Origin: Streptomyces reniochalinae
Lineage (GTDB): Bacteria > Actinomycetota > Actinomycetes > Streptomycetales > Streptomycetaceae
NCBI RefSeq assembly: GCF_003323735.1
Contig: NZ_QOIM01000036.1
Span: 1-64,000, forward strand
Length of the DNA stretch: 64,000 nt
Direction of reading: 5' to 3'
In this document: piece after piece, positions 5,955 to 54,480 of the stretch
How the letters are laid out: each line of letters starts with the position of its first letter
How positions within the stretch are numbered: position 1 is the stretch's first letter
The notes under the pieces: model-generated
What the model was told of the DNA's origin: nothing
What the model saw: only the letters and a program-made list of their open reading frames with translations
The model's database searches: none
Made by a program: the position numbers and the translations under genes

Positions 5955-6818
5955 GTGATCCGTCCACACACCTTCTCCGGTCACTCCGACTCCAACGGCT
6001 GGATGTGGCACCCGGCAGGCAACGCCTGGCTGTGCAACTCCCTGTACGAGCACTACCAGTACACCGGGGACACGAAGCACCTCGAGAAGACCTACCCGCT
6101 GCTCAAGGGGGCGTGCGAGTTCTGGGAGGCGCGGCTCGTCGAGGTGACGGTGACCGACCCCGGCACGGGGCGGGAGCGCCGGGTCCTCGTCGACGACCAC
6201 GACTGGTCACCCGAGCACGGTCCCCAGGACGCGCGCGGCATCACCTACGCGCAGGAGCTGCTCTGGCAGCTGTTCGGCAACTACGGCGCCGCGGCGGACG
6301 AACTCGGCAGGGACGCCTCGTTCGCCCGCGCCGTCGCAGGTCTGCGCTCCCGGCTCCACCTGCCGGGCGTCAGCTCCACCACCGGGTGGCTGAAGGAGTG
6401 GATGTCCGAGGAGAACCTGGGGGAGAAGGAGCACCGCCATCTCTCCCCGCTGGTGGGTCTCTTCCCCGGCGACAGGATCACCGTCGAGGACTCACCCGCC
6501 GACGTGCTCGACGGGGTCTTCGGTGTTCCAGATCGACGCCAACTTCGGTACGCCGGTGGCGATGATCGAGATGCTCGCCCCGTCACGCCCCGGGCGCATC
6601 GACCTCTGCCGGTGCTGCCGGACGCGTGGGCGAAGGCGGGGCGTGTCACCGGCATCGGGCTGCGCGGCGGGCTGCGGCTCGATCTGGCGTGGGCCGAGGG
6701 CGCTTTCACCGAGGCGACTCTCCGCGGTGCGGCGGGAACCCGGGTGACGGTGGTGGCGGAGGGCCGGCGAAGGGAGGTGGCCCTTCCGGACGGCGGGGTC
6801 GTCACCCTGCGGCCCTGA
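5955..6818 (+). pseudogene. GH95 alpha-L-fucosidase remnant
   Basis: Intact GH95 enzymes are about 750-800 aa and release L-fucose from glycans. Here only the second half of the (alpha/alpha)6 catalytic domain and the C-terminal domain remain. The first piece reads WHPAGNAWLCNSLYEHYQYT through the catalytic-region DWSPEHGP to HRHLSPLVGLFPGD. About 90 residues are then missing near 6510, and the hallmark FQIDANFG appears in another frame at 6521-6606. The original frame resumes near 6609 with LPVLPDAW and runs to the stop at 6818. There is no N-terminal half and no plausible start. Loss of this gene leaves the fucose operon next door without a linked hydrolase. Confidence 0.85.
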
Positions 6819-6945
6819 GCGCGGACCGGGAGGGGAGGAGGCCACCGGTGCGCGCCGCTCCGTGAAGTACAGCCCGCACGCCCAGCACACGAGCCCTGCA
6901 AGCCCCGCGCGCACCGCGCACACCGCGGTATCGAGTGGCGCGAAA

Positions 6946-7020
6946 AGAGATCCGATGTTTCCTTGCGCGGCTCGGTCGCCGGGAATAGTGTCGACTAGGT
7001 CGTTCAGTCATCCGATCTCT
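6946..7020 (+). promoter_or_regulatory. fuc operon promoter with flanking operators
   Basis: A good vegetative promoter is visible: TTGCGC (6963-6968), a 17-base spacer, TAGTGT (6986-6991). It is bracketed by AGAGATCCGATG (6946-6957) and CATCCGATCTCT (7009-7020), which form an inverted repeat with one mismatch. Each also contains a CATCNGATG-like half operator. The downstream site overlaps the expected transcription start, a typical repressor position. The 5-prime leader to the TTG start is about 90 bases. Confidence 0.65.
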
Positions 7021-7087
7021 GAGGCGTTGGATGCTCCGTCGACGCAACGGTGGCGCCGCCGCGGGGCAGGCTGCGAAAGGAACCCAG

Positions 7088-8455
7088 TTGTCCGCAGACG
7101 TTGCACGGATCATCGCGATGGACACCTACGACGTCCGTTTCCCGACCTCCAGACAGCTGGACGGTTCGGACGCGATGAACCCGGACCCCGACTACTCCGC
7201 CGCGTACGTCGTCCTGCGCACCGACGCCGGCGAGGGGCTCGACGGTCACGGTTTCACCTTCACGATCGGACGGGGCAACGACGTGCAGGTCGCTGCCGTC
7301 GAGGCGCTGCGCGGGCACGTGGTCGGACGGCCGGTCGCCGAGCTGTGCGCGGACCCGGCGTCGCTGAGCAGAGCCCTGACCGGGGACAGCCAACTGCGCT
7401 GGCTCGGTCCCGAGAAGGGCGTCATGCACATGGCTGTCGGCGCGGTCGTCAACGCGGCCTGGGACCTCGCGGCCAGGCAGGCGGGCAAGCCCCTGTGGAA
7501 GCTGCTGGCCGACGCCGAGCCCGCGTGGCTGGTCTCCCAGATCGACTTCCGCTACCTGACCGACGCGCTGACCGAACAGGAGGCGCTCGACCTGCTGCGC
7601 CGTGCCCGCACGGGCCGCGAGGCCAGGGAGGAGGAGCTGCACCGCAAGGGCTACCCGGCCTACACCACCTCGCCGGGCTGGCTCGGATATCCGGACGAGA
7701 AGCTCGCCCGGCTCGCCGAGGAAGCCATGGCGGCGGGCTTCCGGCAGATCAAGCTGAAGGTGGGCGCCGACCTCCAGGACGACATCCGGCGCTGCCGCAC
7801 CGCCCGCGAGGTCGTCGGGCCGGGCTTCCGCATGGCCATCGACGCCAACCAGCGCTGGGACGTGTCCGAGGCCGTCGCCTGGACGAGTCGGCTGGCCGAG
7901 TTCGACCCGTACTGGATCGAGGAGCCGACCAGCCCCGACGACGTGCTCGGGCACGCCGCGATCCGGCGCGCGGTGGCACCGGTCAAGGTCGCCACAGGCG
8001 AGCACGCGCACAACCGGGTGGTCTTCAAGCAGCTGCTCCAGGCGGACGCGATCGACGTGCTGCAACTCGACGCCGCCCGGGTCGGCGGGGTCAACGAGAA
8101 CCTGGCGATCCTGCTGCTGGCCGCGAAGTTCGGCGTGCCGGTGTGCCCGCACGCGGGCGGTGTCGGCCTGTGCGAACTGGTGCAGCACCTGTCGATGTTC
8201 GACTTCGTGGCGGTGTCGGGCACGACCGAGGACCGGGTCATCGAGTACGTCGACCACCTGCACGAGCACTTCCTCGACCCGGTCGTGATCCGGGACGGGC
8301 ACTACGCCGCACCGCTCGCCCCGGGCTACTCCGCCACCATGAGCCCGGAGTCGATCGCCGCCTACACCTATCCATACGGCCGCTTCTGGGCCGCCGACCT
8401 CACCCGGCGCGGCGACGGCCAGGGCGCCACCGACCCCGCGGAGGCCCAGGCATGA
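7088..8455 (+). CDS. L-fuconate dehydratase (enolase superfamily)
   Basis: A 455-aa member of the mandelate racemase branch of the enolase superfamily, close to L-fuconate dehydratase, which converts L-fuconate to 2-keto-3-deoxy-L-fuconate. Diagnostic pieces are the KLKVG catalytic lysine motif (near 223), the metal ligands in IDANQRW (near 252), EEPTSPDD (near 278) and TGEHAHN (near 304), and [15 protein letters not shown], characteristic of FucD. Start TTG 7088 is chosen because GAAAGGAA (7075-7082) lies just upstream and the family N-terminus begins here; the in-frame ATG at 7031 has no ribosome site. It is the first gene of a five-gene operon and overlaps the next by four bases. Confidence 0.9.
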
Positions 8456-9213
8456 CCACGCACGAACTCACCGGACTGCGCGCCGTCGTCACCGGCGGCG
8501 CCTCGGGAATCGGCCAGGCCACCGCCCGGCGGCTGGCCGACGGCGGCGCCGAGGTCGCCGTCCTCGATCTGGAGCCCTCGGGGGTGGAGGCGCCGCTGCA
8601 CGGCATCAATGCCGACGTCGCGGACGACGCTTCCGTCAGGTCGGCCGTCCAGCGCGCTGCCGACCTGCTCGGAGGCATCGACATCCTGGTCAACAACGCG
8701 GGCATCGGCGCCGCGGGCACGGTCGCGGACAACCCCGACACCGAGTGGCAGCGGGTGCTCGACGTCAACGTCGTCGGCATCGCGCGCACCACGCGTGCCG
8801 CCCTGCCCCACCTGCGGCGCTCACCGTGTGCCGCGATCGTCAACACCTGCTCCATCGCGGCCACCGCCGGGCTGCCGCAGCGCGCCCTGTACTCGGCCAG
8901 CAAGGGCGCGGTGCACGCGCTGACGCTGGCCATGGCGGCCGACCACGTCCGCGAGGGCATCAGGGTCAACTGCGTCAACCCCGGAACGGTCGACACGCCC
9001 TGGGTGGGCCGGCTGCTGGCGGCGGCCGACGACCCCGAGGCCGAGCGGCGGGCGCTCGAGGCCCGCCAGCCGCACGGCCGCCTGGTCGCCGCCGAGGAGG
9101 TCGCCGCCGCCATCGTCCACCTGGCGGGGCCCGGCGCCGGATCGGTGACCGGTACGGCACTCGCGGTGGACGGCGGCATGTCGGGGCTGCGCCTGCGGCC
9201 GGCCGGCACATGA
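8452..9213 (+). CDS. SDR oxidoreductase (2-keto-3-deoxy-L-fuconate dehydrogenase)
   Basis: A 253-aa classical short-chain dehydrogenase. The Rossmann glycine motif TGGASGIG is at residues about 15-22, NNAG near 86, the catalytic serine in [10 protein letters not shown] near 140 and the YSASKGA tyrosine-lysine pair near 155. An acidic D after the second strand (VAVLDLE) indicates NAD preference. In oxidative L-fucose catabolism an SDR of this kind oxidises 2-keto-3-deoxy-L-fuconate to the 2,4-diketo acid. That role is inferred from position directly after the dehydratase, with ATGA overlaps on both sides; L-fucose 1-dehydrogenase is the alternative. Confidence 0.85.
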
Positions 9214-10211
9214 GCGGCGTACTGCCGCGGGCCGCGCTCGGTGCGAGCACGGCCCGGGTGACACGGCTCGCCTTCGGCGCCGCCTGCCTCGGGAACCTGT
9301 ACGAGGCGGTGAGCGAGGAGCAGGCGCTGGCCACGGTGGACGCCGCCTGGGAAGAGGGGCTGCGCACCTTCGACGTGGCGCCGCACTACGGGCTCGGTCT
9401 GGCCGAACGGCGGCTGGGCGCGGCGCTGCGCGGGCGCCCGAGGGACCACTTCACCGTCTCCACAAAGGTCGGACGACTCCTCGAACCGGTCAGCGGTGCG
9501 CAGGGCGACGATATGGCCCACGGGTTCGCCGTCCCGGCCGGCCTGCGCAGGGTGTGGGACTTCAGCGCGGACGGAGTCCGCCGCAGCCTGGAGACCAGCC
9601 TCGAACGACTCGGACTCGACCGGGTGGACATCGTCTACCTCCACGACCCTGACGACCACGAGCGGGAAGCCCTCGACCAGGCCTACCCCGCGTTGGAACG
9701 CCTCAGGGGCGAGGGCGTCGTCAAGGCGATCGGTGTCGGCATGAACTCCACCGCGATGCCCGCCAGGTTCGTCCGCGACACCGACATCGACGCCGTCCTG
9801 CTCGCCGGCCGCTACACCCTGCTCGACCGCAGCGGTCTCGCGGACCTGCTGCCCGCCGCCCACGAGCGGGGCACCTCGGTGGTGGCCGGGGGCGTCTTCA
9901 ACTCCGGAGTGCTCGCCGACCCGCGGCCCGAGGCGACCTACGACTACCGGCCCGCCCCCCGGCAACTGCTGGAGCGGGCGCAGGGCCTGGGGCGGATCTG
10001 CGCGGAGTACGGGGTGCCGCTGCGCGCCGCCGCCGCTCGCTTTCCGCTGGGCCACCCCGCCGTCGCCGCTGTGCTGCTGGGTCTGCGGACCCCGGCCGAG
10101 GTACGGGACGCGGCCGCCCAGTTCCGGCGGCCGTTCCCCGGCGGCCTGTGGGACGCGCTCGCCTCCTCAGGACTGCTCGGCCACACCGGACACCGAAGGG
10201 TGACGTCATGA
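9210..10211 (+). CDS. aldo/keto reductase (L-fucose/L-galactose 1-dehydrogenase type)
   Basis: A 333-aa aldo/keto reductase with a (beta/alpha)8 fold. The catalytic tetrad is visible: aspartate and tyrosine in FDVAPHYG (near 52-57), lysine in STKVG (near 84) and histidine in VYLHDPDD (near 143). Members with this N-terminal pattern (LAFGAACLGNLY, PHYGLGLAERRLG) oxidise aldoses such as L-fucose, L-galactose or D-threo-aldoses at C1, giving the lactone. In this operon it most likely performs the first oxidation of L-fucose to L-fucono-lactone, feeding the lactonase at 10697. It overlaps both neighbours by four bases, indicating translational coupling. Confidence 0.85.
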   Translation: MSGVLPRAALGASTARVTRLAFGAACLGNLYEAVSEEQALATVDAAWEEGLRTFDVAPHYGLGLAERRLGAALRGRPRDHFTVSTKVGRLLEPVSGAQGDDMAHGFAVPAGLRRVWDFSADGVRRSLETSLERLGLDRVDIVYLHDPDDHEREALDQAYPALERLRGEGVVKAIGVGMNSTAMPARFVRDTDIDAVLLAGRYTLLDRSGLADLLPAAHERGTSVVAGGVFNSGVLADPRPEATYDYRPAPRQLLERAQGLGRICAEYGVPLRAAAARFPLGHPAVAAVLLGLRTPAEVRDAAAQFRRPFPGGLWDALASSGLLGHTGHRRVTS

Positions 10212-10585
10212 GGGTTGCTCTGCACACGCGCGTGCGCGCGGAGCGCATCGCCGAGTACGAGGCGGCGCACCGGGAGGTGCCCGCCGAACTGACCGCCGCC
10301 ATCCGGGCGGCAGGCTGCACGTCCTGGACGATCTGGCGCGGTGGCACGGACCTGTTCCACCTCATCGAGTGCGAGGACTACGCGCGGCTGCTCGCCGAGC
10401 TGGAGAACCTTCCGGTCAACGTCGGCTGGCAGGCGCGGATGGCCGAACTCCTCGACGTGGTGCACGACTACTCCGCCCAAGGAGCGGACGCCGGACTGCC
10501 GGTGGTGTGGCAGCTGCCCGAGCCCCGGAAAGAAGCCGTCCCCGGAACCTGCGGCAAGTCGCTCGAAGAGATCGAGCACCTCTGA
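10208..10585 (+). CDS. L-rhamnose/L-fucose mutarotase family protein
   Basis: A 125-aa dimeric alpha/beta-barrel protein of the RhaM mutarotase family, which interconverts pyranose anomers so that the dehydrogenase receives the right one. Characteristic features are the N-terminal strand RVALHTRV with its histidine, the helix EYEAAHREVP, the WTIWR strand and HLIECEDY with a second conserved histidine, and the late NVGWQARM segment with tryptophan. In the oxidative fucose operon it should act on L-fucose. The ATG overlaps the stop of the reductase gene. A gap of 111 bases separates it from the lactonase gene. Confidence 0.87.
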   Translation: MRVALHTRVRAERIAEYEAAHREVPAELTAAIRAAGCTSWTIWRGGTDLFHLIECEDYARLLAELENLPVNVGWQARMAELLDVVHDYSAQGADAGLPVVWQLPEPRKEAVPGTCGKSLEEIEHL

Positions 10586-10696
10586 CTCACCGACCCGCCC
10601 CCGGCCGCCCGCGCCTGAGGCGGGGCCCCGCACCCTGACACCCTGGGTACTCCCACGAGAGGCCCGAGCCCTGTGACGAGGAGGGAGGCGCGCAGC

Positions 10697-11560
10697 ATGC
10701 ACATCGTCGACGCGCACCACCATGTGTGGGACTTGAACGTGCGCGACCAGCCCTGGATCAGCGGCCCCGCCATGGCACCGCTGCGCCGGTCCTTTCCCGC
10801 CGCCGAGTTCGCGCACGAGGCCCGTGCCGCCTCGGTGAGGGCGAGCGTCCTGGTGCAGACCGTCACCGAGGCGCAAGAGACACCCGAACTCCTCGCACTC
10901 GCGGCCGACAGCGACCTGATCGCCGCCGTGGTCGGCTGGACGGACCTGACCGCTCCGGGCGTGGGAGAGGAACTGTCCAGGTTGCGTGGGCTGCCCGGCG
11001 GGGAGTCCCTGCGCGGCATCCGCCATCAGGTGCAGGGCGAGCCCGACCCCGAGTGGCTGGTGCGCCCCGACGTCCTGCGCGGGCTGCGCGCCGTGGCGGC
11101 GCGGGGACTCGCCTACGACCTCGTCGTCCTGCCGCACCAGCTGCCGGCGGCGGCACGGGCGGCGGCCGCCGTTCCCGAACTGACCTTCGTCCTCGACCAT
11201 CTGGGCAAGCCGCCGCTGGCCACGGGGGTGACGGAGGCATGGGAGGCCGGGCTGCGGGGCCTGGCCGCGCTGCCCAACACCGTGGCCAAGCTCTCGGGCC
11301 TGGTCACCGAAGCCGACTGGGAGACCTGGTCGGTCGACCAGCTCCGCGGCTGCGTGGACGCGGCCCTCGACGCCTTCGGCCCGGAGCGCGTGATGTTCGG
11401 TTCCGACTGGCCCGTGTGCACACTGGCCGCCCGCTACGCGGACGTCATGGCGACGACCCGCACGCTCACCGCCGCGCTGGGGCCGAGCGAACAGACCCAG
11501 GTGTGGTCGGGGACGGCAGCGCGCACCTACGGCCTGGGCACCCCTCCGTCAGCGGGGTGA
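10697..11560 (+). CDS. L-fuconolactonase (amidohydrolase family)
   Basis: A 287-aa amidohydrolase of the 2-pyrone-4,6-dicarboxylate/fuconolactone hydrolase group (COG3618). The metal or substrate motifs DAHHHVWD (residues 4-11), GIRHQVQGE (near 108), LDHLGKP (near 176) and FGSDWPV (near 236) are all in place. It should open L-fucono-lactone to L-fuconate, the substrate of the dehydratase at the head of the operon. Start ATG 10697 is preceded by GAGGAGGGA (10679-10687); an upstream GTG at 10673 is less likely. It is the last gene of the operon. No diketo-fuconate hydrolase and no sugar transporter are linked. Confidence 0.88.
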   Translation: MHIVDAHHHVWDLNVRDQPWISGPAMAPLRRSFPAAEFAHEARAASVRASVLVQTVTEAQETPELLALAADSDLIAAVVGWTDLTAPGVGEELSRLRGLPGGESLRGIRHQVQGEPDPEWLVRPDVLRGLRAVAARGLAYDLVVLPHQLPAAARAAAAVPELTFVLDHLGKPPLATGVTEAWEAGLRGLAALPNTVAKLSGLVTEADWETWSVDQLRGCVDAALDAFGPERVMFGSDWPVCTLAARYADVMATTRTLTAALGPSEQTQVWSGTAARTYGLGTPPSAG

Positions 11561-46577: not shown

Positions 46578-47909
46578 TCAGCCGGGCACCCGGGACCGGC
46601 CAGGCCGGACCGACGGCGCCCCCGCGAACCGGCGGCCGGCGTGGTCGGCGGGTGAGGGCGTCACCCGGATCAGCGCGTTGACGAGGTGGTCCATCGCATC
46701 GGTGCCCGGCCTGTCGGTGAGGTTGGAGAGCAGCCGCACCATGAAACGCATGGCGCCGGGGGACCGCACGGCGTGCTGTGTGACGAGCGAGGTGAAGGCG
46801 GGCCGCGCCATCAGCGCCGAGAAGCCGCGCCCGAGGCGGTAGTACCGGCCCAGCCGGTATGCCATCTGGGCCGGGTAGTGCTCCAGCGCCCGCTCCCGGG
46901 CGGGGCCCGCCGGGCGGGCCAGCGCCTGGCCCGCCACGTCGGCGGCCAGTTCGGCCGACTCCATGGCGTAGGTGATGCCCTCGCCGTTGCACGGGTTGAC
47001 CATGCCGCCGGCGTCACCGATCAGCAGGAGCCCGTCGCGGTAGTGGGGGAGGCGGTTGAACCCCATCGGCAGGGCGGCGCCGCGCAGGGGTCCTTCCGCG
47101 TTGCCGGGCTCGCGCAGCCCCCACGCTGCGGGGGTACGGGCCAGCCACGTCTCCAGCAGCCTGCGCGTCTGTATGGCGCCGGTGCGGGAGTCGTTGAGGA
47201 CGCCGAGGCCGACGTTGACCCTCCCGTCGCCCAGGGGAAAGATCCAGCTGTATCCGGGGAGGATCCGGCCGTCCTCGCGGCGCAGGTCCAACCAGGACTC
47301 CAGATACGGGTCCAGGTGTCTGGCGCTGTGGAAGTAGCGCCGTACCGCGGTGCCCACAGGGCGCTTCCTGAGCCGTTCGATACCCATGGAAACGGCGAGG
47401 CGCCCCGCGACGCCGTCCGCCGCGATCACCAGCGGAGCGGCGAAGTCGCGCTCCCGCCCTCCCGGTCCGGCCGTCGAGACGCCCACGACACGCCCGGCGC
47501 GGTCCAGCAGCGGACCGGTGACCTTCGTGCGGGTGTGCAGGCGGGCCCCCGCGGCCTCGGCGTGCCGGGCGAGGAGCTGGTCGAAGTCCTCGCGCGTGCG
47601 GGTGAGCCCGTACGCGGGAAAGGCGCTGCACTCGGGCCAGTCGAGCTCCAGGGTCCGGCCCCGGGAGACGAACCGCAGGCCCCGGTTGCGCATCCAGCCG
47701 GGGGCCGAGGTGTCGATGCCCATCCGCACCAACTGGCGTACGGCCCGGGGCGTCAGGCCGTCGCCGCAGACCTTCTCGCGGGGGAACTCCGACTTCTCCA
47801 GGAGCGCCACGGACAGTCCCTGGCGGGCCAGGTGCCAGGCCGCGGTGGAGCCGCCAGGGCCCGCACCCACGACGATCACCTGCGCCCGCTCCGCCGCCGG
47901 CCGGCTCAC
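46578..47909 (-). CDS. geranylgeranyl reductase family flavoprotein
   Basis: A 443-aa FAD-dependent reductase of the geranylgeranyl reductase/ChlP family. It has the dinucleotide motif [18 protein letters not shown] (residues about 10-27), [12 protein letters not shown] (near 46, characteristic of the family), [18 protein letters not shown] (near 235) and [15 protein letters not shown] (near 305). The family saturates prenyl double bonds of geranylgeranyl chains, menaquinone or archaeal lipids. Start GTG 47909 overlaps the methyltransferase stop (GTGA). It is the last gene of the HPPD-methyltransferase-reductase operon and could reduce the side chain of a prenylated quinol. A second copy usually sits near the respiratory genes in Streptomyces. 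Confidence 0.88.
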
Positions 47910-48640
47910 GCGTGGGCCACCTGGGGCAGCGGCGCCGTGTCGGGTGCGGCGCAGGCGGGGCGGACCGCGCGGTGCAGGGCGACGATGCCGCCGGTGAGGT
48001 TGCGCCACGAGACGCGCGTCCAGCCACTGCCGGCGATCACGGAGGCGAGGGCGGGCTGGTCGTACCAGGCGCGGATGGTGTCGGCGAGGTAGGTGTAGGC
48101 GTCCGGATTGCTGGAGACCCGGCGGGCGATCCGCGGCAGACCGCCCATCAGGTACCGCAGGTACACGGTGCGGAACGGCCCCCACGTCGGATGGCTGAAC
48201 TCGCAGACCACTAGCCGGCCGCCGGGCCGCACCACCCTGGCCATCTCGCGGAGCGCGGCGGCGGGGTCCACGACGTTGCGCAGCCCGAACATGATGGTCG
48301 CCGCGTCGAACGCGGACTCCTCGAAGGGGAGGGAGAGGGCGTCACCCACGCGGAGCGTGACGGGCCGGTGCGTGCCCCGGCCGACCATCCCGGGCGAGCG
48401 GTCGATCCCGACGACGGCGGCGCCCGAGCGGGCGAGGGCCTCGGTGGACACGCCCGTACCGCAGGCGACGTCCAGGCAGCGCTCCCCGGGCCGCAGGCCC
48501 AGGGCCTCGCGGGTTCGGGCCCGCCACGTCCTGTCCGCTCCGGCGGACAGCAGGGTGTTGGTCAGGTCGTAGCGCCGCGCCGCCTGGTCGAACATCGCGG
48601 ACACGGCGTCGGGTTGCTTGGCGAGAGTCGCCCTCGGCAT
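47906..48640 (-). CDS. UbiE/MenG-type quinone C-methyltransferase
   Basis: A 244-aa SAM-dependent methyltransferase of the UbiE/COQ5 family. The opening [22 protein letters not shown] (near residue 15), motif [11 protein letters not shown] (near 58), [18 protein letters not shown] (near 95), [16 protein letters not shown] and VCEFSHPTW (near 148) are all family signatures. These enzymes C-methylate demethylmenaquinone, demethoxyubiquinol or methyl-phytyl-benzoquinol type rings. Sandwiched between HPPD and geranylgeranyl reductase, it most likely methylates the prenylated homogentisate-derived quinol. ATG 48640 has CAGGAG upstream, 36 bases after HPPD. Confidence 0.9.
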
Positions 48641-48675
48641 CGCTGCTCCTGGGGAAACGGTGTGCGAAGTGGGGG

Positions 48676-49845
48676 TCAGAGGTTTCCGCGCAGCTCCTGC
48701 TCGCGCTCGACGGCCTCGAAGAGCGCCTTGAAGTTGCCCTTGCCGAAGCCCTGGCTGCCGTGGCGTTCGATCAGTTCGATGAAGAAGGTCGGACGGTCCA
48801 CCAGGGGGCGGGTGAAGATCTGTAGCAGGTAGCCGTCCTCGTCCCGGTCCACCAGGATGCCGCGGGAGCGCAGCTCGTCGATGTCGACGCGTACGGAGCC
48901 GATCCGCGAGCGCAGCACGGGATCGTCGTAGTAGGCGCGCGGAGTGGGCAGGAAGTCGACACCGGCGGCCCGCAGGGCGTCCGTCGCGGCGAGGATGTCC
49001 TCGGTCTCCAGGGCGATGTGCTGGGTCCCAGGCCCCCGGTGGTAGGTGAGGTACTCGTCGATCTGGGAGCGGCGCCGTCCTGGCGCCGGTTCGTTGAGCG
49101 GGAGCTTGACCTTCTGCGAGCCGTCGGTGACGACCTTGCTCATCAGGGCCGAGTACGCGGTGGCGATGTCGTCCTCGACGAACTCGGCCATCGTCGAGAA
49201 GTCCATGGTGCGGCGGTAGAAGCCGACCCACTCCTCCAGCAGACCGAGTTCGACACAGCCCACGAGGTGGTCGACGCGGTGGAAGAGGCGCGGGCCCGGG
49301 GGGCGGGGGCAGCCGGGGGAGGGCGCCTCGAAGCCGGGCAGGAAGGGCCCGCTGTAGGAGCGGCGCTCGACCAGGGTGTGCCGCAGGTCGCCGTAGGTGG
49401 CGATGGCCGCCGTGCGCACCGCACCGAACTCGTCCCGCGCCGTCGTCGGCTCCTGGAGCACTCGGGCACCGGCGCGGGCGGCGTACACGAGCCCCTCGTC
49501 GAGGTTGCCGACCCGGAGAGCGATGTCGCTGACCCCGTCGCCGTGCAGCGCCGCCCACCGGGTGGCGGGGCTGTCGGGTTCCCCGCCGCCCGTCACCACG
49601 AAGCGGACGCTGCCCGAGGTGAGCACGTACTCGGCGTGTCCCTGCGGTGAGTTCTCGGGCCGCCGGCACGCGGTGATCTCCATGCCGAAGGCCGAGACGT
49701 AGAAGTGGGCGGCCTGGCGGGCGTTTCCCACGCACAGCCTGATGTGGTCGATTCCGGCGACGTCCCACGGGCGGGCGTCGCCCTGGGCGCCCGCGGCGGG
49801 GGCGCCCGCTGCGGCTTCGGTCGTGTCGAGTGCCGTCGGCTCCAT
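48676..49845 (-). CDS. hppD: 4-hydroxyphenylpyruvate dioxygenase
   Basis: A 389-aa non-heme iron dioxygenase that converts 4-hydroxyphenylpyruvate to homogentisate. Two vicinal-oxygen-chelate halves are visible. The iron ligands are the histidines in FHRVDHLVG (near 190) and [11 protein letters not shown] (near 270) and the glutamate in [10 protein letters not shown] (near 357). The C-terminal gate [18 protein letters not shown], with GNF rather than the GNI of hydroxymandelate synthases, favours HPPD. Other members of tyrosine catabolism (homogentisate dioxygenase, fumarylacetoacetase) are absent here. Start ATG 49845 follows AGGGGAC; an ATG at 49881 is possible. It leads the leftward arm of the prenyl-quinol cluster. 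Confidence 0.93.
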
Positions 49846-49877
49846 GGTGGCGTCCCCTGCGTTGACTACATGGGCTA

Positions 49878-49910
49878 TCACTATATGTGCCTATGTGATG
49901 CGTATAGTGA
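49878..49910. promoter_or_regulatory. palindromic divergent promoter/operator of the prenyl-quinol cluster
   Basis: TCACTATA (49878-49885) and TATAGTGA (49903-49910) are exact reverse complements inside a markedly AT-rich island (49861-49920). Each arm holds a TATAGT -10-like hexamer pointing outward, one toward HPPD and one toward the methyltransferase. They are 17 bases apart, so each could also occupy the other promoter's -35 position. TTGACT at 49863-49868 is another possible -35. The dyad would let one regulator shut both arms; no regulator gene is linked. Confidence 0.55.
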
Positions 49911-50007
49911 CTATTGACCTTTTCACGCCGTTTCACCGATCGTTCACGAACGCGCTTTCGACATCGTTCGCTCCGGTCGACGAGCACCGAACGCCAAGAG
50001 GGAAACC

Positions 50008-51141
50008 ATGACCACCGCGATGACCGTCCCGTCGGAAGGGCCGGACGCCCCTGCCCCCACCGGCCCCGCCGAGCTGGACATGGACCGGCTGTCCCTCCTG
50101 CTCTTCGGGCACGCGGCGTTCCAGTACCTCAACGCCGCCTGCGAGCTGAGGCTGCTGGACCTGCTCATGGAGCGGGGGCCGCTGGACGCCACTCGGATCA
50201 GGTCCGAACTGGGACTGGCCGAGCGGGCCGCCGACATCCTGCTGCTGGGCTGCACCTCGCTGGGGCTCATCCGCAAGGAGGAGGGGAGGTACCAGGCGGC
50301 GGCGCTGATCGAGTCACTGGCCGAGGAGGGCAGCTGGAGCAAGCTGCGGGACACCGTCGCCTTCGAAGCGCACATCGTCTACCCGGGGCAGGAGGACTTC
50401 GTCGACTCCCTGCGCGAGAACTCCAACGTCGGGCTGCGGCGCGTCCCCGGCGACCACCCCGACCTGTACCACCGCTTCAGCCTCCACCCCCACCTGGAGG
50501 CGGTGTTCTACCGGTACATGCGCTCCTGGTCCCAGCTGGCCAACGCACACCTCGTCGCAGCGCTCGACCTCCACGGCGCCACCCGGCTCCTCGACTGCGG
50601 CGGAGGCGACGCCGTCAACGCGCTCGCCCTGGCCGCACACCACCCCCACCTCGAGGTGACCGTCCTGGAGATCCCCTCCTCGGCCCCGATGACGGAGAAG
50701 AAGATCTCCGAGGCGGGGCTGGGCGAGCGCGTCTCGGTACAGCCGTGCGACATGTTCGCCGACGCCTTTCCCGGCGGGATGGACTGCGTCCTCTTCGCCC
50801 ACCAGCTGGTCATCTGGACGCCCGAGGAGAACACCGCGCTGCTGCGCAAGGCCCACGACGCCCTCGACCCCGGCGGGCGTGTCGTCATCTTCAACTCGAT
50901 GTCGAACGACGAGGGCGACGGCCCCGTGGTGGCGGCCCTGGACAGCGTCTACTTCGCCTCCCTGCCGGCCGAGGGAGGCATGATCTACCCGTGGCGGCTG
51001 CACGAGGAGTGCCTGCGCGCGGCCGGTTTCACCGCGATCGAACGCGTCGAGGTACCAGGGTGGACGCCCCACGGCATCATCGTCGCCACCAAGCCCGCCG
51101 CCGAGCCTGCCACCAAGCCCGCCGCCGAGCAGCGCGCATGA
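50008..51141 (+). CDS. SAM-dependent methyltransferase, plant O-methyltransferase-like
   Basis: A 377-aa methyltransferase with an N-terminal winged-helix dimerisation domain ([20 protein letters not shown] near residue 45; [18 protein letters not shown] near 72) and a C-terminal Rossmann SAM domain. Motif I is [15 protein letters not shown] (near 195), followed by [27 protein letters not shown] and [13 protein letters not shown] (near 290). This architecture is typical of O-methyltransferases acting on aromatic natural products. In this cluster it could methylate the homogentisate-derived ring or hydroxyl. It ends with a short KPAAEPAT-type repeat. It heads the rightward operon and overlaps the prenyltransferase gene (ATGA). 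Confidence 0.86.
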
Positions 51142-52307
51142 GCGACGCGCCGGGCAGCAGCGCACCGCGGCCGGCAACCGCCTCACCGGCGCCCGGCTCG
51201 TTCGCCGCCTTCGTCCAACTCGCCAGGGTCAAGTTCCTCTTCCAGTCGATGATGGTGACCGGCTTCGGCGTGACCCTCGCCGTCCACGCGACCGGCACCT
51301 TTTCACTGCCCTGGTACCTGCTGACGCTGGCGTTCGCCTGGTCGACGCACCTGATGACCCACTTCTGCAACGAGTACTTCGACCTGGAGGCCGACCGGGC
51401 CAACCCGCGGCCGACCGCCTGGACGGGCGGCAGCCGCGTCCTCGTCGACGGGCTGCTCACCCCCGCCACCAGCATCGGCGCCGCGTTCGTCCTGCTGTTC
51501 ACCTCGCTGGCTCTCGTCCTGGCGATGCCCACGCTGCCCGCCCGGCTGCTGGCGGGCGGGCTGACCGCGCTCGCCTGGTTCTACACGGCACCGCCCCTGC
51601 GGCTGAACTACCACGCGCTGGGCGAGGCGAGCTGCGCGGCCGTCCTGTACGCAATGGGCCCCCTCCTCGCCGCCGTCCTGCAACCCGGCGGACCCGGCGC
51701 GCTGCTCTGGTGGTGCACGGGCCTCGTCGCGGCGCTCCAGGTGCTGCGCTGCCTGGTGATGAACCTCGCGGACATCGAGGGTGACGCCCTCGTGGGCAAG
51801 GCCACCCTGGCCGGCGTGCTCGGCCCCCGCAGGGTCACCCACGTCTACACGGCGGGCCAGACCCTTCTGTACGCCGGCGTGCTCGTCCTGGCACTCACCC
51901 AGGTGCTGCCCGCGCTGGTGGCCGCCGCGCAGCTGCTGGTCGCACCGGTCGCGGGCCTGGTGGTGCGCGGGCTGCGCACCGACGCGATGTCCGATACCGG
52001 GCGCTCGGGCGGCGTCACCTTCTGGGCGTCCATGCAACTGCCGCTCACCACCTGCGCGACCACGCTCGCCCTCCTCGCCGACCTGCTGTCGGCCGGGCGG
52101 CCGGCTCCCGCGCTCTGGAACGCCATCGCGGGCGGAACCGCGCTGCTGTTCACCGCGTGGTTGTACCGCGCTGTCGCCGCCGCCCGGCGTCCCGCACACC
52201 ACGAGGACACCGGGAGCGCGGCGCCCGTGCCCCCGGAGCCTCACGCGTCCACGAAACCGCGCCCGCTGCCGGTGGAGCCCGTACGGGAGGGGCGCGAGGC
52301 GCGATGA
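51138..52307 (+). CDS. UbiA family prenyltransferase
   Basis: A 389-aa integral membrane prenyltransferase with about nine spans. The two aspartate-rich prenyl-diphosphate motifs are NEYFDLEADRANP (near residue 80) and NLADIEGDALVGKATLA (near 210). The segment TGGSRVLVDGLL after the first motif is seen in the MenA-like branch. It would transfer a geranylgeranyl (or reduced) chain to an aromatic acceptor. With HPPD in the cluster, homogentisate with concurrent decarboxylation is the obvious candidate. A proline-rich cytoplasmic tail of about 40 residues closes the protein. It overlaps both neighbours by 4 bases. Confidence 0.9.
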   Translation: MSDAPGSSAPRPATASPAPGSFAAFVQLARVKFLFQSMMVTGFGVTLAVHATGTFSLPWYLLTLAFAWSTHLMTHFCNEYFDLEADRANPRPTAWTGGSRVLVDGLLTPATSIGAAFVLLFTSLALVLAMPTLPARLLAGGLTALAWFYTAPPLRLNYHALGEASCAAVLYAMGPLLAAVLQPGGPGALLWWCTGLVAALQVLRCLVMNLADIEGDALVGKATLAGVLGPRRVTHVYTAGQTLLYAGVLVLALTQVLPALVAAAQLLVAPVAGLVVRGLRTDAMSDTGRSGGVTFWASMQLPLTTCATTLALLADLLSAGRPAPALWNAIAGGTALLFTAWLYRAVAAARRPAHHEDTGSAAPVPPEPHASTKPRPLPVEPVREGREAR

Positions 52308-53374
52308 GCGCACCGGTGAGTCCCCCGGCGAGGGCTCACGAGATCGCCGTTTCGGTCTGCCGACGGGCGCACGCGCGGCTGGAGCCCACGCTGCGCACAG
52401 CCGTGCGCACCCTGCCGCGACAGCTGTCCCGGATGAGCGGCTACCACTTCGGATGGTGGGGACCCGACGGGGAGGAGACCGGCCGCGCCATGCCGGGCAA
52501 GGCCGTCCGCCCGGCACTGGCCTACCTCGCGGCGGAGGCGCTGGGCGCGCCCGCCGAGCAGGCCACCCCCGGGGCCGCCGCTGTCGAACTCGTCCACAAC
52601 TTCGCCCTCGTCCACGACGACATCATGGACGGCGACTCCACCCGCAGGGGCCGGCCCGCGCTGTGGCAGCAGTACGGCACGGGGGCGGCGCTGCTGGCAG
52701 GAGACGGCCTGTTCGCGCTCGCAGCCGACACGCTGGCCTCGCCGCGTACCCAGCGGTCCTGCTGGGCCCTCACCCTGCTGACCCGTTCCATGCTCACCAC
52801 CTTGCACGGACAGGCGTACGACCACGACTTCACCCGGGCCCCCTGGAGCGGCCCCGGCGCCGTGACTCTCGCGGACTACCGCCGTGCCGCGTCCGCCAAG
52901 ACGGGCGCGCTGCTGGCGGCGGCCACCGCCATCGGGGCGCTGCTGGCCGGGGGCGGGCCGCGGGAGGTGGCACGGTTCGCCCGGTTCGGCCGCGGGCTCG
53001 GCGTGGCCTTCCAGTGCGCCGACGACGTCCTCGGCCTGTGGGGCGAGCCGTCCGGCACCGGCAAGCCGGTCGGCACCGACCTGCGCGAAGGCCGCAGAAC
53101 CCTGCCCCTCGTCGCGGCGCTCACCTCCGGCACCACGGCAGGTGACCGGCTGCACGCCCTCCTGCGGCGTCGCTCCGGTGGACGGCTGAACGCCGAGGAG
53201 TTGGACACCGCCCTGGAGCTGATCGAGGCCGCGGGCGGCCGGGCCGCGACCGAAGCGGAGGCACGCCGCCAACAGCAGGCGGCCGTCGGCGCGGTGGCCG
53301 GCCTGCCGATGCCCGCTCGCGTCCGCACCGAACTGCTCGCCACCGCGCACTACGTGACGGCACGACGGACATGA
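52304..53374 (+). CDS. polyprenyl diphosphate synthase, probably GGPP synthase
   Basis: A 356-aa trans-isoprenyl diphosphate synthase. The first aspartate-rich motif is in LVHDDIMDGDSTRRG (near residue 105) and the second in FQCADDVLGLWGE (near 240); the GKAVRPAL and KTGALLAA segments complete the site. A phenylalanine five residues before the first motif with alanine next to it is the pattern expected for a C20 product. It would supply geranylgeranyl diphosphate to the adjacent UbiA enzyme. ATGA overlaps at both ends tie it into the four-gene operon. Confidence 0.9.
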   Translation: MSAPVSPPARAHEIAVSVCRRAHARLEPTLRTAVRTLPRQLSRMSGYHFGWWGPDGEETGRAMPGKAVRPALAYLAAEALGAPAEQATPGAAAVELVHNFALVHDDIMDGDSTRRGRPALWQQYGTGAALLAGDGLFALAADTLASPRTQRSCWALTLLTRSMLTTLHGQAYDHDFTRAPWSGPGAVTLADYRRAASAKTGALLAAATAIGALLAGGGPREVARFARFGRGLGVAFQCADDVLGLWGEPSGTGKPVGTDLREGRRTLPLVAALTSGTTAGDRLHALLRRRSGGRLNAEELDTALELIEAAGGRAATEAEARRQQQAAVGAVAGLPMPARVRTELLATAHYVTARRT

Positions 53375-54480
53375 GCACGCCCCGCCGCCGCGACGCCCCG
53401 CACCGCGCCGCCGGTCTCTCCGCCTCGCACCACGCCCCGGCGCTCCGCGCCGCCGGCCTCTCCGCCTCGCACCACGCACCCGGGCTCGGCGTTCCGGAAA
53501 GCGAGCACATGCTGCGTCACCGCTGGTGGGCGAGGCTGCGCCGCCGCTGGCGGGCCACAGGAGCCGACCTGCCCCGCGGTGACCCCCTGCCCGCGCACCC
53601 GGCCCCCATGGAGGGATATCTGTGGCGCTTCACGGACCCGGTCGGCGGGCGCGTCCTGCTCCTGGCCTGCGGTGTCAACCACCACCCGCGACGCCCCTGG
53701 ACCACGGTCGTCGCCGCGGCGCACCCCGGCGGCCTGGTGCGCTCGGCCAGCGTCGAGGGAACCGGGGCCGACACCACCGCCTACCGCATCGCCGCGCACC
53801 CCGCGATCGAGCTGACCCGCGACCGGTTGCGGGCGCGCGTCGGTGACGAGGTCGATCTCCGGTGCGCGCTGCGCCCGTACCACACCTGGCCACCGCGCCG
53901 CTTCCTGCACGGCAGCGGTGTCTTCTCCCTCGTCCCGGGACTCGACCACTACTGGCACCCCCACCTGTTCGGCGCCACGGTGGAGGGCACGGTGCGGCTG
54001 CGCGACCGGACCTGGGACCTGGCCGGCTGCCAGGTCTACGCGGAGAAGTCCTGGGGGAGAGGCTTTCCGCGCGCCTGGTGGTGGGGCCAGGCCCACGGCT
54101 TCGACCGCCAGGACCTGTGTGTCGCCTTCGCGGGAGGTCTGCTGGGCCGGGGCAGGCTGACCGTGCCCGTGGGCGGCCTCGTCGTCGGTATCGGCGGAAG
54201 GACGGTGAGCCTGGTCCCACCCGGGGCGTGGGTGCGGGCCAGGGTCGGGGACGGCAGCTGGCACGTGAGTGGCCGCTCACCGCGCTACCAGATCGAGATG
54301 ACCGGCACGGCCGCGGGCGACCGGCCGCTCCGGCTGCCCGTGCCGCTGCTCGACCCGTATCGTTTCGGCCATTCCCTCCAGCATCTGTCAGGACGGCTGG
54401 AGGTACGCATCCGCCGCGACGGACGCCTGCTCTACGCCGGGACCTCTCACCTCGCCGGACTGGAGACGGGAGGAGTGTGA
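53371..54480 (+). CDS. tocopherol cyclase-like protein
   Basis: A 369-aa protein matching tocopherol cyclase (VTE1/Slr1737 family), which closes the chromanol ring of prenylated quinols. The family hallmark VYAEKSWGRGFPRAWWWGQ is at about residues 222-240. Upstream are MEGYLWRFTDPVGGRVLLL (near 80) and HLFGATVEGTVRLRDRTW. The length fits cyanobacterial members (about 360 aa). The N-terminal 45 residues contain a 14-residue duplicated segment (AAGLSASHHAP twice); translation might instead start at a later methionine (MLRHRWWARL). It is the last gene of the operon; no other product of the pathway is encoded to its right. Confidence 0.8.
   Translation: MSTPRRRDAPHRAAGLSASHHAPALRAAGLSASHHAPGLGVPESEHMLRHRWWARLRRRWRATGADLPRGDPLPAHPAPMEGYLWRFTDPVGGRVLLLACGVNHHPRRPWTTVVAAAHPGGLVRSASVEGTGADTTAYRIAAHPAIELTRDRLRARVGDEVDLRCALRPYHTWPPRRFLHGSGVFSLVPGLDHYWHPHLFGATVEGTVRLRDRTWDLAGCQVYAEKSWGRGFPRAWWWGQAHGFDRQDLCVAFAGGLLGRGRLTVPVGGLVVGIGGRTVSLVPPGAWVRARVGDGSWHVSGRSPRYQIEMTGTAAGDRPLRLPVPLLDPYRFGHSLQHLSGRLEVRIRRDGRLLYAGTSHLAGLETGGV
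53404..53487 (+). repeat. 42-base tandem duplication inside cyclase N-terminus
   Basis: A 42-base unit (53404-53445) is repeated directly (53446-53487); the first 32 bases are identical except for one T to C change. Being 14 codons long it keeps the frame and duplicates RAAGLSASHHAP in the protein. Confidence 0.8.

Follow-up and report, generated by a model that had tools for sequence, protein, structure and literature searches.

Tocopherol biosynthesis in plants and cyanobacteria employs a set of enzymes comprising 4-hydroxyphenylpyruvate dioxygenase (HPPD), homogentisate phytyltransferase (HPT), MPBQ-methyltransferase, tocopherol cyclase, gamma-TMT, and the reductase GGR/ChlP. One passage of a review attributes tocochromanols solely to photosynthetic organisms (PMC5745509); Leishmania, however, is the subject of one paper on the biosynthesis of tocopherol (PMC6443866), and PMC13055315 concerns plant tocopherol. 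Tocopherol-cyclase-like proteins of heterotrophic bacteria were described in a passage from 2016 as an open question (PMC4963081). This work presents a cluster of seven genes at positions 46578-54480 of the window, that is, the whole stretch of 64,000 nucleotides from Streptomyces reniochalinae (contig NZ_QOIM01000036.1; whole genome, 7.69 Mb) that was analyzed. With modest confidence, we read it as a dedicated cluster for a polymethylated prenyl-hydroquinone that would be closed to a tocopherol- or tocotrienol-type chromanol, with methylation occurring first, at the tyrosine stage. No report of such a cluster was among the papers listed by searches of full-text literature, a scope that leaves most subscription papers and all preprints outside.

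Organization and conservation of the cluster

The genes form two divergent arms, the minus-strand arm being HPPD-MT1-GGR and the plus-strand arm MT2-UbiA-PPS-TC, and lie exactly where an earlier note, made from the sequence alone, had placed them. That note had also described 4-base overlaps within the arms, and four are found (GGR/MT1, MT2/UbiA, UbiA/PPS, and PPS/TC), together with one spacing of 35 bases between MT1 and HPPD. Family calls were made by Pfam and NCBIfam profile scans with curated cut-offs. These agree with the families previously read from motifs, except for the nature of MT2, whose nearest match is SibL, an aromatic C-methyltransferase.

To locate relatives, the TC protein was scanned against genome contigs of 84,980 species via six short peptides, which returned 23 TC relatives: 10 from Streptomycetaceae (nine Streptomyces and one Wenjunlia) and 13 from elsewhere. 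The 10 Streptomycetaceae loci, referred to here by L numbers and counted with the window as 11 clusters, all have the same divergent layout, with protein identities to the window of 51-96% (51-85% for TC). Because this layout recurs in 10/10 loci, the grouping of the seven genes is not due to chance; because the scan used six short peptides of a single protein, 10 is a lower bound. Rather than being scattered, as the earlier note had considered, five core genes (GGR, HPPD, MT2, UbiA, and TC) stand together in every one of these loci. MT1 is present in 8/10 (absent from L049 and L051) and PPS in 6/10 (absent from L045, L049, L050, and L051). When the clusters are compared in pairs, the identities of one gene correlate with those of another with coefficients of 0.84-0.99. 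The genes flanking the window cluster match only those of L042, the nearest species, and this points to borders close to 46578 and 54480. A search of 295 genomes of the genus found TC in one; absences in the 295-genome searches are soft because at most 6 candidates were scored per genome. Across the phylum, the cyclase family PF14249 scored above its cut-off in 29/396 genomes. In all, this is a genuine, conserved, and dedicated cluster, and a rare one.

Between the arms lies an intergenic promoter region of 162 bases (49846-50007). It contains an inverted repeat, TCACTATA (49878-49885) and TATAGTGA (49903-49910), that is kept in 5/11 clusters (the window and L042 to L045). No sigma-70-like promoter was found in this divergent region, and a promoter and terminator scan gave no match.

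The aromatic methyltransferase and the dioxygenase

MT2 (50008-51141, plus strand) is a member of Methyltransf_2 (PF00891, E 3.9e-23) and the putative tyrosine ring methyltransferase of the cluster. It aligns without gaps across 340 residues to the 3-hydroxykynurenine C-methyltransferase SibL (PDB entry 4qvg; 369 bits, E 3.2e-109), with the catalytic residues Asp132, Tyr134, and Tyr295 kept; the next PDB match reaches 86 bits. According to passages on SibL, Tyr134 is the principal base, assisted by Asp132 and Tyr295, while His335 and Asp292/Tyr288 anchor the substrate by its amino-acid tail and Tyr99 binds the ring amino group (PMC4426599). In SibL numbering, all 11 clusters retain Asp132, Tyr134, Asp292, Tyr295, and His335 in MT2, and 13 active-site positions are identical throughout. 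MT2 differs from SibL at two of the contacts, however, with Phe replacing Tyr99 and Val replacing Tyr288 in 11/11 clusters, and it falls into a separate tree group. This residue set points to C-methylation machinery and tail anchors in a protein that would make no ring-amino contact, and tyrosine has no ring amino group. An O-methyltransferase was considered and rejected, as 11/11 clusters have Val/Ile at SibL Val248/Ile249, where ASMT has its catalytic His/Asp.

Relatives of MT2 (E 1e-50 or better) occur in 48/392 Streptomyces genomes, and 20 of the surrounding regions were read. Eight relatives from outside the cluster, 64-68% identical to MT2, match it at 13/13 active-site positions. Each of the eight loci contains a homolog of a particular neighbor gene from locus L148 (54-95% identical in the other seven), and that gene scores 351 bits against 3-methyl-L-tyrosine peroxygenase (PDB entry 6vdp). 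L148 additionally carries a peptide synthetase gene and a second Methyltransf_2 gene. The relative at L158, by comparison, has Tyr at positions 99 and 288, as SibL does, and adjoins tryptophan 2,3-dioxygenase-like and kynureninase genes. In the MT2 tree, the cluster proteins, the eight peroxygenase-linked relatives, and L155 form one group (support of 91/98, below the program's star), and SibL and L158 belong to a separate one (100/99). The cluster and peroxygenase-linked kinds are not cleanly split within their group, as L049 falls among the latter. The tree has long branches for L161 and L163; L144, L145, and L153 were dropped as repeats of L044, L046, and L049. Four relatives (L155, with Asn for Asp132; L156, with Met at 288; L161; and L163) fit neither the SibL-type nor the MT2-type class.

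A passage on SfmM2 from the saframycin pathway states that this enzyme methylates L-tyrosine and can dimethylate it in vitro (PMC13109631). The likeness of MT2 to SfmM2 is judged from the neighbors of the MT2 relatives and from the published description of SfmM2. MT2 is placed first in the pathway because of its residue set, its peroxygenase-linked relatives, the tree grouping, and the SfmM2 chemistry; it most likely methylates tyrosine before HPPD acts.

As a separate observation, the L155 locus (6200-11052; Streptomyces G120) has an MT2 relative of 64% identity and, some 2.5 kb away, a gene of the HPPD family (36% identity; 336.4 bits on TIGR01263, over the cut-off). No UbiA or TC match occurs in its 17 kb, and it is possibly another methyltransferase/dioxygenase pairing.

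HPPD (48676-49845, minus strand) scores 390.8 bits on TIGR01263 (cut-off, 277). It is the second copy in the genome, 57% identical to a housekeeping copy whose kind was found in 41/41 Streptomyces searched (69-88% identical to that copy outside this genome). Extra copies of MenG and GGR likewise stand beside housekeeping ones in the genome, which we count in favor of a dedicated pathway. The possibility that the cluster HPPD or the MenG-type MT1 is the only housekeeping copy was discarded, given the second copies of both. Also rejected was hydroxymandelate synthase, since the cluster HPPD scores 436.7 bits to the HPPD 1t47 versus 190.0 to 2r5v, which we take to be hydroxymandelate synthase. 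A passage of PMC6750108 supports this identity of 2r5v. The Fe ligands and active-site residues are kept in 11/11 clusters. Active-site positions were placed by motif, with numbering taken partly from PMC6750108. The sole active-site position that differs from 30 housekeeping copies is a Leu in place of Phe, beside the residue matching Arabidopsis Pro280; across the whole protein there are 41 group-specific sites.

The prenyl chain and the cyclase-family protein

UbiA (51138-52307, plus strand), the presumed catalyst of a decarboxylative prenylation, belongs to PF01040 (E 3.3e-22) and carries the motifs NEYFDLEAD and DIEGD. Its score on the HPT model NF009525 is 19.2 bits (cut-off, 226); four other cluster UbiAs scanned gave at most 19.7 bits, three of them not being listed at E 0.001. 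Synechocystis slr1736 reaches 466.8 bits on the same model; slr1736 and the cyclase slr1737 are the two cyanobacterial sequences compared here. A transplanted cyanobacterial HPT was rejected, as UbiA scores far below the NF009525 cut-off. On a MenA-type model, the 5/11 cluster members scanned gave 51-58 bits (cut-off, 264).

PPS (52304-53374, plus strand) is a polyprenyl diphosphate synthase (PF00348, E 1.2e-54) that scores 296.1 bits on the geranylgeranyl diphosphate (GGPP) synthase model IdsB, below the cut-off of 475. An aromatic residue five positions before the first DDxxD, which limits the prenyl chain to C20, is found in 7/7 PPS proteins, and the product is probably GGPP (C20). PPS scores highest, at 347.7 bits, on the model for family 2 encapsulin cargo of the polyprenyl-transferase type, although this is below the cut-off of 450.

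At E 1e-8, the only other relative of UbiA in the 295 genus genomes, absences again being soft, is at L080 (4649-13873; Streptomyces G225). This locus comprises 3-dehydroquinate-synthase-II, DeoC-type aldolase, arylamine-N-acetyltransferase-type, and FAD genes, together with UbiA, PPS, and a squalene-hopene-cyclase-like gene. The first two presumably constitute a 3-amino-4-hydroxybenzoate pair, and the locus can be read as another meroterpenoid cluster. Its UbiA (48% identical) and PPS (46%) are adjacent and in the same order as in the window; it differs, however, in having the dehydroquinate-synthase-II, aldolase, and squalene-hopene-cyclase-like genes and no HPPD, MT2, or TC match within 19.5 kb.

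GGR (46578-47909, minus strand, GTG start) is a geranylgeranyl-reductase-family flavoprotein that would saturate the prenyl chain. It exceeds the TIGR02032 cut-off (249.4 versus 158.8 bits) and falls below those of the MenJ (248.3 versus 700) and ChlP (41.8 versus 505.3) models. MT1 (47906-48640, minus strand) is a methyltransferase of the UbiE/MenG type and would add the third ring methyl. The paralogs of these two proteins, a MenG 57% identical to MT1 and a reductase 55% identical to GGR, are separated by about 2.5 kb on contig C13. Since a radical-SAM gene of the CofH/MqnC type and a gene for the 20-kDa subunit of NADH dehydrogenase are nearby, we read C13 as a menaquinone locus; because the paralogs lie together there, GGR and MT1 look like a duplicated menaquinone tailoring pair. 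As a 57% second copy, MT1 may have a substrate different from that of the first copy. Its placement, and that of GGR, beside HPPD and a tyrosine-type methyltransferase suggests a benzoquinol rather than a naphthoquinol.

TC (53371-54480, plus strand) is a tocopherol-cyclase-family protein, the only copy in the genome, and the putative catalyst of chromanol ring closure. It scores 73.0 bits on PF14249 (cut-off, 26.6; E 3e-20), matching mainly the C-terminal part of the profile, and no other Pfam family appears at E 0.001 or better. All six cluster TCs scanned, of 11, exceed the PF14249 cut-off, at 53-76 bits. An alignment (A1) was built from the 11 cluster TCs and 21 others, with L041 and L064 left out of the 33 TC relatives. 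A profile of 32 TC relatives aligns with the Synechocystis cyclase slr1737 over 300 columns (probability, 99.3%; E 4e-19), pairing MEGYLWRF with FEGWYVRL and YAEKSWGRGFPRAWWWGQ with YAEKNWGHSFPSRWFWLQ. On sequence grounds, then, TC is a distant homolog of tocopherol cyclase along its full length, and not merely one of the unrelated lipocalin-like proteins that the earlier note had weighed. In the TC tree, the 11 cluster proteins form one side of a branch (100/100); the root is unsure because slr1737 sits on a very long branch. The relatives at L032 to L041 and L052 to L064 are 41-48% identical to the window TC, nearly all come from Actinomycetota, and most have an unaltered NWG motif.

The AlphaFold2 (AF2) model of TC (335 residues; pLDDT, 90.1; pTM, 0.89) adopts the fold seen in AttH, kievitone hydratase, 25-phosphosteroid lyase, and the decalin Diels-Alderases. 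For these matches, Z is 15.8-23.8 and the root-mean-square deviation (rmsd) 3.5-4.3 over 253-289 aligned residues; the next match has a Z of 5.8. No entry titled tocopherol cyclase is among the structure matches listed, which is no evidence either way. The fold is common to enzymes acting on prenyl or other alkenes, presumably including carotenoid 1,2-hydratase. In that hydratase, according to one passage, the alkene receives its proton from an Asp, and the cation is stabilized by Trp residues (PMC12402844). By analogy, Glu191 and Trp202/Trp204 of TC, all three invariant in A1, are candidates for alkene protonation and cation steadying, respectively.

Proposed pathway, alternatives, and known systems

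From the gene content, conservation, families, MT2 residue set, paralogy, and TC fold observed, we infer a series of reactions, their order, and a product. MT2 would C-methylate L-tyrosine ortho to the hydroxyl group, and a housekeeping transaminase would convert the resulting 3-methyltyrosine to 3-methyl-4-hydroxyphenylpyruvate. From this, the cluster HPPD would form a methyl-homogentisate with the methyl beside the original phenol. UbiA would then transfer the C20 chain from PPS with decarboxylation, creating a second ring methyl. One ring carbon would remain free after prenylation, and MT1 would add the third methyl there. GGR would reduce the prenyl chain and thereby set the number of remaining double bonds; TC would protonate the first prenyl double bond, upon which the phenol oxygen closes the ring. 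Because MT2, decarboxylation, and MT1 would each supply a ring methyl, the full gene set predicts the head group of alpha-tocopherol. With both methyltransferases and a fully reduced chain, the product would be C29H50O2 (430.381 Da); the trienol would have a mass of 424.334. Clusters without MT1 would yield a dimethyl head, or a trimethyl one if MT2 dimethylates as SfmM2 does in vitro. We consider it very likely that the product is a prenylated, methylated hydroquinone and likely that it is a chromanol; among the possible orders, methylation ahead of prenylation has the best support.

Several observations weigh against this pathway. No transaminase is present among the seven genes. The HPPD active site gives no sign of a methylated substrate, since only 1/18 positions differs from the housekeeping copies; this comparison neither shows nor excludes such a substrate. 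On the SibL side of the MT2 tree, four relatives (L157, L159, L160, and L162) have Phe at 99 with Tyr at 288, and so position 99 alone cannot tell an MT2-type substrate. MT1 exceeds the cut-off of the demethylmenaquinone methyltransferase model NF001241 (341.5 versus 327 bits). The PF14249 scores of the cluster TCs are low beside the 447 bits of the cyanobacterial cyclase. Furthermore, the motif given as YxEKNWG for photosynthetic cyclases in a passage of PMC4963081 reads YAEKSWG in 11/11 clusters, with N changed to S and the rest kept; NWG is retained in 20/21 other rows of A1. Finally, none of the 23 TC relatives outside Streptomycetaceae (13 from the contig scan and 10 from the phylum search) has the cluster around it, and the wider TC family may therefore do something else. 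No neighbor family is shared by more than 6 of these 23 loci, several of which lie on short contigs or close to a contig end. Five of them (L034, L053, L055, L058, and L061) have weak matches to MT1 or PPS nearby (32-38%), which were not counted as cluster parts.

The alternative that survives best, unlikely as we consider it, yields the same product class by a plant-like order: HPPD forms homogentisate, UbiA prenylates it, MT1 and MT2 act later, with homogentisate or the prenylated quinol as methyl acceptor, and TC closes the ring. The match of the HPPD active site to housekeeping copies at 17/18 positions agrees with this order, as does MT1, whose UbiE/MenG family methylates prenylated quinols. 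MT2, however, keeps the tail-holding His335 and Asp292 of SibL and groups with the peroxygenase-linked relatives (91/98). Likewise, compounds without an amino acid function, when tested, were not converted by SfmM2, according to passages of PMC13109631, which do not name 4-hydroxyphenylpyruvate or homogentisate among them.

Slightly less probable still is a pathway with the same early steps in which TC is a hydratase or other alkene-protonating enzyme, so that a prenyl-hydroquinone or quinone bearing a tertiary alcohol is formed instead of a chromanol. TC does share its fold with kievitone hydratase (Z 19.5, rmsd 3.5, 268 residues aligned) and 25-phosphosteroid lyase (Z 16.3, rmsd 4.3, 259 residues aligned), and the published cyclase motif is altered. 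Ring closure by TC is nonetheless favored by its sequence kinship to PF14249, the one Pfam family that it matches at E 0.001 or better, and by the alignment of its FEGWY- and YAEK-type motifs with the cyanobacterial cyclase. An accessory respiratory quinone, plastoquinone- or methyl-plastoquinone-like and made by a menaquinone-derived tailoring set with TC only modifying or storing it, is improbable: GGR and MT1 are paralogous to the menaquinone pair and UbiA is nearer to MenA-type models than to HPT (all below cut-off), but the distribution is sparse (TC in 1/295 genus genomes, with soft absences), TC is in 10/10 clusters and MT1 is not, and the housekeeping copies remain.

Returning to the chromanol pathway with tyrosine-stage methylation, its cluster places an orphan cyclase-like protein in a near-complete pathway and thereby suggests its substrate; ten isolates carry the cluster for testing, among them S. 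albus NRRL B-1811, S. niger NRRL B-3857, and Wenjunlia vitaminophila DSM 41686. We also put forward, as a tentative proposal only, that Streptomyces built a vitamin-E-type pathway independently from a menaquinone pair, an HPPD copy, a peptide-antibiotic tyrosine methyltransferase, and meroterpenoid-type UbiA and PPS. Methylation at the tyrosine stage, ahead of prenylation, would then lead by convergence to alpha-tocopherol-type chromanols in a bacterium that is not photosynthetic, and the orphan cyclase-like protein would gain its first function. If true, this would be a second assembly of vitamin-E-type chemistry, with the methylation order reversed, and a source of bacterial enzymes.

Parts of the cluster can be compared with known systems. 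The menaquinone pair (MenG and a MenJ-like reductase) has its counterparts in MT1 and GGR, whose paralogs lie close together elsewhere in the genome, but the cluster copies sit with HPPD and a tyrosine-type methyltransferase. The SfmM2/SfmD module of saframycin-type clusters, which provides 3-methyl-L-tyrosine, finds a parallel in the eight MT2 relatives beside 6vdp homologs; in the window, by contrast, the gene adjoining MT2 is HPPD instead of a peroxygenase, and the seven genes include no peptide synthetase. Orphan bacterial cyclase-like proteins share the Pfam family and the YxEK-WG/FPxxWxWxQ region of TC, but the 23 relatives outside Streptomycetaceae lack the cluster within which TC stands.

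The vitamin-E-like pathway of the earlier note holds as a dedicated, conserved cluster with HPPD, a GGPP-type synthase, UbiA, a GGR-family reductase, and a cyclase homolog; it does not hold as a transplanted plant pathway. The enzyme classes are those of plants and cyanobacteria (HPPD, a UbiA prenyltransferase, methyltransferases, a chain reductase, and a PF14249 cyclase). Judged by its proteins, however, the window cluster is not that gene set moved over: UbiA reaches about 19 bits on the HPT model (226), GGR 41.8 on ChlP (505.3), and MT2 comes from an unrelated methyltransferase group. In plants, ring methylation follows prenylation, the reverse of the order proposed here; the window genes, in contrast, form one cluster in which methylation would come first.

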